From the NCBI GenBank assembly GCA_031260145.1, contig JAIRKL010000002.1, positions 1 through 61,159 of the forward strand: a stretch of 61,159 nt of DNA, given 5' to 3'. The stretch is from Mycoplasmataceae bacterium. Its GTDB lineage: Bacteria > Bacillota_I > Bacilli_A > Mycoplasmatales > Mycoplasmoidaceae. Shown piece by piece: positions 7,089 to 52,561 of this stretch. Numbering within the stretch: position 1 is the stretch's first letter; each line of letters opens with the position of its first letter. The position numbers were made by a program, and so were the translations under genes. A model generated the notes under the pieces. That model was not told the DNA's origin. It saw nothing but the letters and a program-made list of their open reading frames with translations, and did no database searches.

Positions 7089-7130
7089 AAAAGTTCACTT
7101 TTTCATTTATTTTTACAATATAAAGGTTGT
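7089..7130 (+). promoter_or_regulatory. Shared DUF16-like/sigma upstream module, copy 1
   Basis: The palindrome AAAAGT-TC-ACTTTTT (7089-7103) is followed by an AT spacer and ACAATATAAAGGTTGT directly before the ATG at 7131. The same module precedes the genes at 23189, 43262, 52519 (minus) and 28524 (minus). If TATAAA is the -10 box, the start codon lies 6 nt downstream, which is the leaderless spacing seen at many genes here. Confidence 0.75.
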
Positions 7131-7514
7131 ATGGTATTTAATAAGAATCAAGAAAATAACACAAACAAAGTGTTGAAATCAAAAAACACCAATTCTTCCA
7201 GTTCTATAATTAATAAGAAAATGGGAAAAGAAAGAAATTTCATAGTTAACAGAACCTCAAGTAATATACTTGAACAAGGAACTGATTTTAGTGCAATAGA
7301 ATATACTTATTCCAGAAGAACACCAAAACTAGATATTATTAATGAGATTTTAAAAAGATTAGAAAAGATTGATTCAAAACTTGATATCCAAGGAGAAGAA
7401 ATTAAAGAAATAAATGTTAAGATTGCCAATATTGAATTAGTTCAAAAAATCCAAGGAGAAGAAATTAGAAAAATAAATAATGTTATTATTTTAAATAATT
7501 TAAAAACAGAATAA
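7131..7514 (+). CDS. DUF16/UPF0134-like coiled-coil protein, paralogue 1
   Basis: A 127-aa protein of a family with four full-length members in this window. It has a polar N-terminus (MVFNKNQENNTNKV), a central block with RNFIVNRTSSN and DFSAIEYTYSRRTPK, a conserved EILKRLEKIDSKLD helix, then heptads with QGEEIKEI and QGEEIRKI, and the terminal motif VIILNNLKTE. The layout resembles the M. pneumoniae UPF0134 (DUF16) proteins, which are trimeric or dimeric coiled coils of unknown function. It has no signal peptide. Its central block is nearly identical to that of the 43262 copy and differs from the 23189 and 52127 copies, so there are two subtypes. Relationship to DUF16 is inferred from architecture. 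Confidence 0.75.
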   Translation: MVFNKNQENNTNKVLKSKNTNSSSSIINKKMGKERNFIVNRTSSNILEQGTDFSAIEYTYSRRTPKLDIINEILKRLEKIDSKLDIQGEEIKEINVKIANIELVQKIQGEEIRKINNVIILNNLKTE

Positions 7515-23145: not shown

Positions 23146-23188
23146 AAAAAGTTAACTTTTTCATTTATTTTTACAATATAAAGGATGT
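23146..23188 (+). promoter_or_regulatory. Shared DUF16-like/sigma upstream module, copy 2
   Basis: The palindrome AAAAAGT-TA-ACTTTTT (23146-23161) is followed by spacer and ACAATATAAAGGATGT directly before the ATG. The centre differs from the other copies (TA versus TT or TC) while the arms are kept, as expected for a dimer-bound operator. Confidence 0.75.
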
Positions 23189-23530
23189 ATGGTATTTAAC
23201 AATAATAAATCAAACAACACTAATAAAGCACAAAATTCCAAAAAACAAGAGTCTATAATTAAAAAGATAGGCAAGAAAGAAAATTATTATGTTAATGAAT
23301 CTACTAATAAATATATAAAGGAAGGAGATGAGATAGTAATGAGTAAGTTTATTTATTCTGGAAGAGTACCAAAACCAGATATTATTGGTGAGATTTTAAA
23401 AAGATTAGAAAAGATGGATTTGAAATTAGATAATATCGAATTAGTTCAAAAATCTCAAGGGGAAAAATTAGATAAATTGGAAATAAAACTTGATAATATT
23501 ATTGTTTTAAACAATCTAAAAACAGAATAG
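23189..23530 (+). CDS. DUF16/UPF0134-like coiled-coil protein, paralogue 2
   Basis: A 113-aa paralogue of the second subtype: polar start MVFNNNKSNNTNK, central NYYVNESTNKYIKEGDEIV with MSKFIYSGRVPKPDIIGEI, the conserved LKRLEKMD helix, then heptads (DNIELVQKSQGEKLDKLEI) and the end VLNNLKTE. It shares the central block with the 52127 copy but has fewer heptads than it. No signal peptide or membrane segment. It is the only gene between inverted copies C and D of the dispersed motif. Function is unknown; oligomerisation by coiled coil is inferred from the heptads. Confidence 0.75.
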   Translation: MVFNNNKSNNTNKAQNSKKQESIIKKIGKKENYYVNESTNKYIKEGDEIVMSKFIYSGRVPKPDIIGEILKRLEKMDLKLDNIELVQKSQGEKLDKLEIKLDNIIVLNNLKTE

Positions 23531-27948: not shown

Positions 27949-28524
27949 CTAATAATAATTCTCAACAAATTTTTTTATCGAAACAATCTTGCTTCTTAAC
28001 TTTTTATCATCAATATTTAATTTTTTACGAATTTCCCTATTTTTGTATCCAATATATTTTAAATTTGTTATTTCATGATATTTTTTAGGAAGAATATCTA
28101 AAACTCTTTCCATTTTTGCTTCATTTTCTTCACAAACTAAAAACTCTTCCATTGGATCAGGTTCGTTATTACTTATTAAATATTCTCGTCTTTCTTCATT
28201 CATATTATCGAAATAAAGAGTTTTTATATTTCATTTTTTCTCCTTATGTGTAAAACAACGACATTGTTCCTTGATTTTTAATGTAAGTATATTATTAACT
28301 AGTTTTTCAAACCCTTTTTCACCAGTCTCATTATCTCATATTTCCAAAGAAGTTTTTAATGCTAAAAATTTAAGTTTGCAAAAATCACTAGGGTCTAAAT
28401 CTTTATATTTACTAACCATTATTTGAATTATTTTTGTTAACCTTTCATCATATTTAACATAGATTAAATTCATTAAACTTCTGTTTAATTTTTCATTTTT
28501 TGCTGCGTTTAGTAATTTTACCAT
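27949..28524 (-). CDS. Sigma-70-like (MG428-type) regulatory protein
   Basis: A 191-aa code-4 frame, intact although surrounded by decayed genes. Residues about 10-90 fit sigma region 2 (LNLIYVKYDERLTKI-type start, KYKDLDPSDFCKLKFLAL, W-D-N-E-T-G-x-K-G-F, then an I-K-E-Q helix). Residues about 135-190 fit region 4: a helix-turn-helix LDILPKKYHEITNLKYIGYK, NREIRKKLNID, KLRSKIVSI. Mycoplasmas encode one small alternative sigma of this kind (MG428 in M. genitalium, which activates recombination genes); homology here is inferred from layout and size. Its promoter module is nearly identical to that of four DUF16-like genes, which suggests autoregulation. An alternative is a non-sigma HTH regulator. 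Confidence 0.7.
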
Positions 28525-28568
28525 ACATCCTTTATATTGTAAAAAAAAATAAAAAAGTAAACTTTTTT
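28525..28568 (-). promoter_or_regulatory. Shared upstream module in front of the sigma-like gene
   Basis: Minus strand: AAAAAAGT-TT-ACTTTTTT (8-bp arms), an AT spacer, then ACAATATAAAGGATGT directly before the ATG at 28524. The arrangement and spacing are the same as upstream of the DUF16-like genes at 7131, 23189, 43262 and 52519. Confidence 0.8.
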
Positions 28569-28593
28569 AATTATTTTCACAAAATAACCAATA

Positions 28594-29313
28594 TTAAATA
28601 GGTATATATTGCCCTTTCTTACTTGCGCTATTTTTTTGTTTTTTTATTTCCTTTGCTTGGGATAAAAACTCATTTCTTTTTCGTTTTTTTGTTGAATAAA
28701 TCATATATTCTAAAGCACCAGCTACTGCTTTAATTGGAACGAGATTCTTTTCTCCGCTTCCTCAAGGAATAACAATATCAGAAATGAATTTTTTTGGTTC
28801 TACATATTCATGATGCATAGTAATAACATTTTCTCTTCACATTTGAATAGTTTTATTGATATCAGTATTTCTTGAACCAATGTCACGAAGTAATCTCCTT
28901 ATTAATCTTTCATCATCAGGAACATCAATAAATAATTTGATATCTGCATATCTATTAACATCTTCATTAGTTAGTGATAATATCCCTTCTAAAATAATAA
29001 CATCAGCAGGTTTGATTAATTTTTTTGTTGTTATTGTTTGCGTTAAAAAATCATAAATTGGAACCTTCGTTTCTTGTCTTTCTTCAATTAAAAATTTTAT
29101 TGCTTCTCGAACTTCAAATCAATCAATTGATTCTGGAGAGTCATAATTTTTTGTTTGAATGCGATCTTTTGAAAGATAAAATCAATCCAAAGAAAGAACT
29201 TCACAAGTTGCCGTTTTTGGCATATTATCACGAATTAATTCAGCAACAGTTGTTTTCCCACTTCCAGAACCTCCGCAAATTATGACTAAAATTGGTTTTA
29301 TATTCTTTGTCAT
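28594..29313 (-). CDS. udk: Uridine kinase
   Basis: Phosphorylates uridine and cytidine for pyrimidine salvage. The 239-aa product has the P-loop CGGSGSGKTTVAELI (about residues 13-27), LSLDWFYLSKDR, the YDSPESIDWFE segment, VPIYDF and ILEGILSLTNEDV, then RLIRRLLRDIGSRNTD, which match the uridine kinase/phosphoribulokinase family. Four Trp are TGA-encoded, so most of the gene is invisible under the standard code. It is divergent from the giant permease with 201 nt between; that gap holds ATATAGT-TAACTG-ACTATAT, a 7-bp-arm inverted repeat near 29325-29345 that could be an operator. Confidence 0.92.
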
Positions 29314-43218: not shown

Positions 43219-43261
43219 AAAAAGTTTACTTTTTTATTTAATTTTACAATATAAAGGATGT
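43219..43261 (+). promoter_or_regulatory. Shared DUF16-like/sigma upstream module, copy 3
   Basis: AAAAAGT-TT-ACTTTTT (43219-43234), spacer, then ACAATATAAAGGATGT directly before the ATG at 43262. Identical in arrangement to the module of the sigma-like gene. Confidence 0.8.
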
Positions 43262-43615
43262 ATGGTATTTAACAATAATCAAGTAAATAACACTAATAAA
43301 GAACAAAAATCAAAACACACTAATTCTTTCAGTTCTATAATTAATAAGAAAATGGGAAAAGAAAGAAATTTCATAGTTAACAGAACCTCAAGTAATGTGT
43401 TTGAACAAGGAATTGATTTTAGTGCAATAGAATATACTTATTCCAAAAGAACACCAAAACCAGATATTATTAATGAGATTTTAAAAAGGTTAGAGAAAAT
43501 CGATTCAAAATTAGATATCCAAGGGGAAGAAATTAAGGAGATAAAAGAAAGAATTGTAAAACTTGAAAATAAGGTCGATAATGTTATTGTTTTAAATAAC
43601 TTAAAAATAGAATAA
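43262..43615 (+). CDS. DUF16/UPF0134-like coiled-coil protein, paralogue 3
   Basis: A 117-aa paralogue of the first subtype: polar MVFNNNQVNNTNKEQ, central RNFIVNRTSSN and DFSAIEYTYSKRTPKPDI, helix EILKRLEKIDSKLD, then heptads QGEEIKEIKERIVKLENKVD and end VLNNLKIE. The central block is almost identical to that of the 7131 copy; the coil differs, so coil and head appear to be exchanged between paralogues. Soluble, no export signal. Function unknown. Flanked by copy F of the dispersed motif on the right, with a degraded inverted relative near 43153-43198 on the left. Confidence 0.75.
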   Translation: MVFNNNQVNNTNKEQKSKHTNSFSSIINKKMGKERNFIVNRTSSNVFEQGIDFSAIEYTYSKRTPKPDIINEILKRLEKIDSKLDIQGEEIKEIKERIVKLENKVDNVIVLNNLKIE

Positions 43616-52126: not shown

Positions 52127-52519
52127 TTATTCTGTTTTTAAACTGTTTAAAATAATAACGGTATTGAGTCTTGCATTTATTTTTTTAATTTCTTCTCCTT
52201 GAAGTTTTTGAGCCTCTTTAATTTCTTTGATTTCTTCTCCTTGAACTTTTTGGATTAATTCAATATTATCTAATTTCGAATCCATCTTCTCTAATCTTTT
52301 TAAAATCTCGCCAATAATATCTGGTTTTGATACTCTTCCAGAATATGTAAATTTACTCATTACTATCTCATCTCCTTCTTTTATATATTTATTAGTAGAT
52401 TCATTAACATAATAATTCTCTTTCTTGCCTATCTTTTTAATTATAGGATTAGAAGAATTAGCTTGTTTTGATTTTTGTTCTTTATTTGTGTTATTTGCTT
52501 GATTATTGTTAAATACCAT
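52127..52519 (-). CDS. DUF16/UPF0134-like coiled-coil protein, paralogue 4
   Basis: A 130-aa paralogue of the second subtype: MVFNNNQANNTNKEQKSKQ, NYYVNESTNKYIKEGDEIV, SKFTYSGRVSKPDIIGEI, helix LKRLEKMDSKLDNIELIQ, then heptads VQGEEIKEIKEAQKLQGEE and an end VIILNSLKTE. The coil is longer than in the 23189 copy although the head is nearly the same, showing gain or exchange of QGEEIK-type heptads. No export signal. Function unknown. Confidence 0.75.
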   Translation of the reverse strand: MVFNNNQANNTNKEQKSKQANSSNPIIKKIGKKENYYVNESTNKYIKEGDEIVMSKFTYSGRVSKPDIIGEILKRLEKMDSKLDNIELIQKVQGEEIKEIKEAQKLQGEEIKKINARLNTVIILNSLKTE

Positions 52520-52561
52520 ACATCCTTATATTGTAAAAATAAATGAAAAAGTAAACTTTTT
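52520..52561 (-). promoter_or_regulatory. Shared DUF16-like/sigma upstream module, copy 4
   Basis: Minus strand: AAAAAGT-TT-ACTTTTT (52561-52546), spacer, then ACAATATAAGGATGT directly before the ATG. It has one A fewer than the other copies before GG. Confidence 0.75.

Follow-up and report, generated by a model that had tools for sequence, protein, structure and literature searches.

A probable SigH/MG428-type sigma factor regulon of recombination, DNA-uptake and DUF16-like genes in a Mycoplasmataceae bacterium

The 61,159-nt stretch of DNA analyzed here (the window) is contig C28 of the 658-kb, 33-contig genome, 79% complete, of an uncultured Mycoplasmataceae bacterium. It encodes a predicted sigma-70 family protein of the SigH/MG428 type, whose gene is preceded by a promoter module shared with a regulon that consists mainly of recombination and DNA-uptake genes, together with about 29 DUF16-like genes. 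Sequence comparisons make it very probable that this sigma factor directly reads the module, including the copy before its own gene, as the regulator of a competence/recombination programme. Mycoplasmas are generally taught as having almost no transcriptional regulation, and a second sigma factor whose promoter is legible in the genome sequence represents a rare defined mycoplasma regulon. The relevant features of the window are as follows.

27949..28524 (-), sigma-70 family protein, 191 aa (P0001), SigH / MG428-sigma20 type, genetic code 4
28525..28566 (-), sigma-gene promoter module, AAAAGTTTACTTTT-N12-ACAATATAAAGGATGT, putative autoregulation
28594..29313 (-), udk (uridine kinase), upstream of the sigma gene
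7089..7130 (+), promoter module, copy 1, before the DUF16-like gene at 7131
7131..7514 (+), DUF16-like coiled-coil protein, 127 aa, centre type A
23147..23188 (+), promoter module, copy 2, before the DUF16-like gene at 23189
23189..23530 (+), DUF16-like coiled-coil protein, 113 aa, centre type B
43220..43261 (+), promoter module, copy 3, before the DUF16-like gene at 43262
43262..43615 (+), DUF16-like coiled-coil protein, 117 aa, centre type A
52520..52560 (-), promoter module, copy 4, before the DUF16-like gene at 52519
52127..52519 (-), DUF16-like coiled-coil protein, 130 aa, centre type B; PF01519 E=2.5e-4, under the gathering score

Identity of the sigma protein

As judged by profile matches and predicted fold, the 191-aa protein is a member of the sigma-70 family, and the suspicion of a sigma factor raised by a sequence-only reading of the window is thereby borne out. 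Residues 21–188 match TIGR02937 (sigma70-ECF) with E=3.1e-7, at 30.2 bits against a curated NCBIfam cut-off of 42.9; the same model is matched by 10 of 13 orthologues, and a Pfam search with the 191-aa protein alone gave no match. The best solved structure in the PDB for a profile of the 13 orthologues is the sigma-H factor 3mzy (E=7.6e-8). An AF2 model calculated from two sequences (mean pLDDT of 70, with a poor linker at residues 90–116) matches sigma factors throughout. Foldseek ranked 9a4r_A, an RPSH-RPOB model, first, with no E-value below 0.001, and the region-2 domain can be superposed onto SigW with a Z-score of 9.5 and an rmsd of 3.1 Å over 88 residues.

The promoter module and its genome-wide copies

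The module of about 42 nt reads AAAAGTT-N-ACTTTT-N12-ACAATATAAAGG-A-TGT-ATG and abuts the start codon of each of the five genes that carry it in the window. All five copies lie where the earlier reading had placed them (7089+, 23147+, 43220+, 52560- and 28566-), and its claim that the other window genes lack the module also holds, a scan of the whole window having found no sixth exact copy. The 14-bp palindrome alone is not very rare and is only mildly enriched in this AT-rich window, with 6 matches at one mismatch or fewer versus 3.0 ± 2.0 expected. The full composite is far above chance: AAAAGTNNACTTTT-N12-ACAAT has 36 exact matches genome-wide, and two mismatches or fewer yield 54 matches, compared to 5 for the reversed control pattern.

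Inspection of the ORF that follows each copy resolved about 40 modules in the genome, 29 before DUF16-like genes and 11 before other genes; the recU site required a relaxed search and was added to the composite matches. The eleven other carriers are listed by contig.

C28, sigma gene
C16, recA (RecA E=4.5e-102)
C27, ruvA, with ruvB directly behind (RuvA_C E=7.6e-9)
C18, recU (RecU E=4.7e-27), site from the relaxed search
C12, comEC ('Competence' domain E=6.9e-13), module with two mismatches
C12, OB-fold/SSB-like protein, 87 aa
C27:72000-73985, C39-peptidase exporter, 595 aa (C39 E=5.9e-17)
C27:43203 (-), double-glycine peptide, 99 aa (locus L031/L052)
C2, conserved protein, 344 aa, no function assigned
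C14, conserved protein, 348 aa, no function assigned
C21, conserved protein, 135 aa, weak MAG1140-family match

None of the roughly 40 copies stands before a housekeeping gene, a genome-wide result in line with the single regulon that the earlier reading had proposed from the window. The genes serS, behind the peptide gene, and an ecfA-like ABC gene, behind recU, are downstream neighbours only, and neither sporulation nor comG pseudopilus genes were seen among the module targets. As the DUF16-like copies were duplicated as units of promoter and coding sequence, some sharing 100–220 bp of upstream flank, their common promoter is not independent evidence. Independent evidence for a shared promoter comes from the eleven non-DUF16 genes, which are not homologous to each other. 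Among these eleven modules AAAAGTT, ACTTTT and ACAATA...A are kept, while position 8 is free and the spacer is loose; across non-homologous genes, the module is thus conserved only where it matters.

The sister species and the proposed mode of recognition

When 84,980 species genomes were searched for the joint pattern, with the window's own genome left out, the sole named organism matched was the sister species G016, Mycoplasmataceae bacterium Nm470_bin117, a metagenome-assembled genome (MAG) that we take to be from termite gut. Its sigma protein is 39% identical to that of the window and has the same udk synteny. In this species the palindrome reads AAAAGTTAACTTTT and keeps its spacing to a -10 that is itself different (about RCWATATAT). 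It precedes recA, ruvA, comEC, the counterparts of the window species' three unknown proteins, coiled-coil genes and the sigma gene of the sister species. In the last case, it stands about 130 nt before the gene, followed by a degenerate second copy closer to the start; the two modules there (on contig C9) form a tandem of a perfect and a degenerate copy.

Region 4.2 is 77% identical between the two sigma proteins and region 2 is 34% identical, the largest excess of region 4.2 over region 2 among 190 sigma pairs. The palindrome and region 4.2 are thus shared, and the -10 and region 2 have diverged, which is what direct recognition by the sigma factor would predict and suggests, from this one pair, that the palindrome is largely a -35 element read by the sigma factor, rather than an operator for a dimer. 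We propose that the sigma protein would bind core RNA polymerase and directly recognize the module, with region 4.2 reading a -35 of about GTTNAC within AAAAGTT-N-ACTTTT, and region 2 reading a -10 of about AATATA within ACAATATAA, at a -35/-10 gap of 19 bp. Transcripts would start at the ATG or a few bases before it and would be near-leaderless, as the -10 positions suggest to be the rule in this genome. Among the window's 31 larger genes, Shine-Dalgarno-like sequences precede 2 of 31, and many have TATAAT 7–8 nt before the ATG.

The module before the sigma gene would provide positive feedback, making a self-amplifying switch over the other ~39 modules. Once on, such a switch would be expected to raise the recombination genes recA, ruvAB and recU; the DNA uptake and processing genes for ComEC and the OB-fold/SSB-like protein; the double-glycine peptide, related to MPN313, which would be secreted via the C39-peptidase transporter; and three conserved envelope or unknown proteins, along with the ~29 dispersed DUF16-like coiled-coil proteins.

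Other species

A generic module search in 37 relatives rose clearly over controls only in the window's own genome and in the sister species; motifs elsewhere have diverged. Two distant species (G029 and G032) have a DUF16-like gene 5 nt before the sigma gene, in an apparent operon at the rpmG-secE-nusG locus; the gene order there (L089, L090) is rpsO, DUF16-like, sigma, rpmG, secE, nusG. The promoter motif of this operon, AAAAGATACTTTTCTTGTGCCTCTATTTTT, recurs 4 and 8 times in the two genomes (0 in controls), ahead of other DUF16-like genes, of an SSB-like gene with 36% identity to that of the window species, and of an apparent C39 exporter start. Together with the sister species, these comparisons indicate that the content of the regulon is kept while the promoter sequence drifts. 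The leaders of recA were also tried as a source of the motif in congeners and abandoned, most of those read being ordinary and without a module; recA membership is a lineage-specific recruitment. In another genome (G009, L041/L068) the sigma gene immediately precedes that of a C39-peptidase exporter, and a TATTTTTACAATATAA box stands before the sigma start. A motif search in that genome returned only the sigma promoter itself, with no second copy and no regulon seen.

Alternative explanations

The palindrome could instead be an operator bound by a dimeric activator or repressor distinct from the sigma factor, with sigmaA reading TACAAT and the sigma-like gene merely one target, a reading close to that first given to the window and one that we regard as unlikely. 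Its appeal lies in the arms AAAAGT and ACTTTT, which are complementary, are perfect in nearly all copies of the sister species, and have no need to be palindromic in a sigma -35. TACAAT is, moreover, one base off TATAAT and could be read by sigmaA with an activator, and TATAAT is found at a similar distance from the ATG in housekeeping genes of the window. However, the distance from the palindrome to the -10 is constant in 40 of 40 copies, and position 7, the first central base, is T in all 40, while its dyad mate at position 8 varies (T>A>C/G). The site is therefore not a symmetric palindrome with a free centre. The arms are conserved, as had been noticed from the window, with substitutions in recU (one mismatch), comEC (two mismatches) and two DUF16-like copies; the accompanying description of two variable central bases has to be revised to one. 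The palindrome is also kept along with region 4.2, in contrast to the changed -10 and region 2, the sigma-operon motif of G029/G032 has a conserved core other than the palindrome, and no gene for a dimeric regulator was recognized among the eleven non-DUF16 targets. The fixed spacing to the -10, the invariant centre base and the co-conservation with region 4.2 lead us to prefer a -35 element to an operator. The proposal of one regulon comprising the sigma factor and the coiled-coil family has survived the sequence-based tests; a separate dimer operator is not favoured.

It is very improbable that the module is a hitch-hiker on a dispersed DUF16-like cassette, a copy of which reached the sigma gene by chance. 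The DUF16-like copies do share promoter and coding sequence, in some cases along with as much as ~220 bp of upstream flank, and many of them are located at the ends of contigs. Nevertheless, ten further unrelated genes, mostly for recombination and DNA uptake, have the module without any DUF16-like sequence, and the sister species keeps the same regulon with a different -10. Pure hitch-hiking was dropped, being contradicted by these non-DUF16 carriers.

Least probable of all is that the AT palindrome and its T-run act not as a promoter element but as a weak terminator for the gene upstream. The sigma locus just behind udk (28525-28590, -) folds better than shuffles (z=-3.6), but two DUF16-like modules tested do not (z=+0.9 and +1.2), and the module always faces the downstream start codon and adjoins it at a constant distance; the terminator reading was dropped. 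As a separate matter, the folded RNA at 28525-28590 could act on the sigma gene as a terminator or attenuator, reminiscent of ter625, by which MPN626 is silenced in M. pneumoniae (PMC12494982).

Distribution and origin of the sigma gene

Of the 36 genomes in the genus, 32 gave some match to a sigma profile at E<=0.01, and about 28 of these matches are convincing. In ten congeners the sigma gene lies immediately upstream of rpmG-secE-nusG; that of the window is not at this locus and adjoins udk, as in the sister species and in G002, which have the same udk-sigma order. In the window genome, the sigma gene has moved to its place beside udk. The sigH gene of Firmicutes likewise sits by nusG and has a role in competence (PMC3364868). 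Orthology was assigned from profile scores and synteny, the sequences being too diverged for a confident tree.

The sigma-family profile also reaches an osmC-like - sigma - ptsI locus in a 0.6-Mb genome (G061) with E=5.6e-10. We take this locus to be MG427-MG428-MG429 of Mycoplasma genitalium. By profile, the MG428/sigma20 factor and that of the window belong to one family, which is probably descended from SigH. The link to an MG428-type sigma, named in the earlier reading, is confirmed by this match and by the modules before recA, ruvAB and recU.

The DUF16-like family

The term 'DUF16-like' used at the outset proved apt: the best copy scores 35 bits against PF01519 (E=2.2e-8), and the gathering score of 40 bits is reached by no copy tested. 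The proteins are modular, with common ends and at least three central types. Among the 29 copies genome-wide, several are cut by contig ends and one has an early stop. Copies stand at the ends of contigs C3, C15, C21, C27, C30 and C31; the repeat probably broke the assembly, in which case the true number exceeds 29. As a speculation, the copies may be substrates of the recombination with which they would be co-induced.

The double-glycine peptide and the C39 exporter

The 99-aa target has a double-glycine leader, MVKLTQEQKKEINGG, followed by IGPMLLW, and a tail related to RLSPxPxRSxxxP. It scores 18.4 bits against the MPN313 family model NF045747, compared to a cut-off of 100; three genomes of genus g17 pass this cut-off, and intermediates link them to the peptide of the window species. 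The MPN313-related family was found in 49 of 298 genomes of the order, and almost every sequence inspected retains both the GG and the tail. Members from Mycoplasmoidaceae-like genomes (loci L148-L177) show a conserved hydrophobic start after the GG and an RLSPxPxRS-like tail. Rather than being cytosolic accessory proteins, the members of this family may be secreted peptides. MPN313 is, we assume, the M. pneumoniae orthologue of MG220/RrlA; if so, RrlA becomes a candidate secreted peptide and the C39 exporter its candidate processing enzyme. Our literature search found no paper describing RrlA as a secreted double-glycine peptide.

The exporter scores 62 bits against PF03412, compared to a cut-off of 22. 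No ABC_tran match was found in its 595 residues, and its match to NF045998 covers model positions 2-486 of 673; it shows a peptidase and a membrane part and seems to lack an ATPase domain, which calls for caution in reading a peptide loop into these data. Co-occurrence of C39 exporters and GG peptides is uninformative, as ABC proteins match in 298 of 298 genomes.

On this basis we raise, tentatively and as a possibility that we think doubtful, a wider scheme in which the MG428/sigma20 system would be a SigH-derived, peptide-gated competence programme. The MPN313-family protein (RrlA, if MPN313 is MG220) would then be a GG pheromone or bacteriocin, cleaved and exported by the C39 protein and feeding back on the sigma factor, and the DUF16-like proteins would be competence/recombination effectors.

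Comparison with known systems

The DUF16-like proteins resemble DUF16 (PF01519) of M. pneumoniae in being multi-copy and in having a short N-terminal domain followed by a heptad coiled-coil of variable length. Unlike DUF16, they have their own conserved N-terminus and an NNLKTE tail, and their genes are tied to a sigma-type promoter. The 99-aa peptide shares the GG leader of double-glycine and class IIb bacteriocin peptides but differs in its mature part of 65–85 aa, with cleavage here only predicted, and no immunity gene was identified for it.

The closest parallel is the MG428/sigma20 regulon (MPN626 in M. pneumoniae), which likewise combines a small sigma-70 protein with recA and ruvAB as targets. 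The presence of an MPN313-related protein among the targets of the window species would parallel RrlA of the sigma20 system, provided that MPN313 is MG220. The sigma20 promoter consensus of M. genitalium is reportedly TTGTCA-N18/19-ATTWAT, from which the promoter of the window species differs. The latter species also adds comEC, recU, the SSB-like OB-fold gene and about 29 DUF16-like genes, and its sigma gene has its own module directly before the ATG. In M. genitalium, sigma20 controls recA, ruvA and ruvB, and RrlA (mg220) and RrlB are required for its activation (PMC9262362).

The SigH (sigma-30) factors of Firmicutes resemble the family in the position of the orthologues upstream of rpmG-secE-nusG in ten congeners and in its best matches, 3mzy and the RPSH-RPOB model; the window sigma differs from SigH in standing beside udk, in its length of 191 aa and in its low sequence identity. 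SigH drives competence genes in Lactobacillus sakei (PMC3364868).

The MG428/sigma20 regulon itself is thus known; what is new is the DUF16-like family, comEC, the SSB-like gene and the probable SigH ancestry, as well as the recognition, from leader and tail motifs, of the MPN313/RrlA-family protein as a putative double-glycine peptide. The regulon ties recombination, DNA uptake and a peptide exporter together and provides a first regulatory home for the DUF16-like genes. It suggests that the recombination sigma factor of M. genitalium descends from the competence factor SigH of Firmicutes and may be fed by a secreted peptide.
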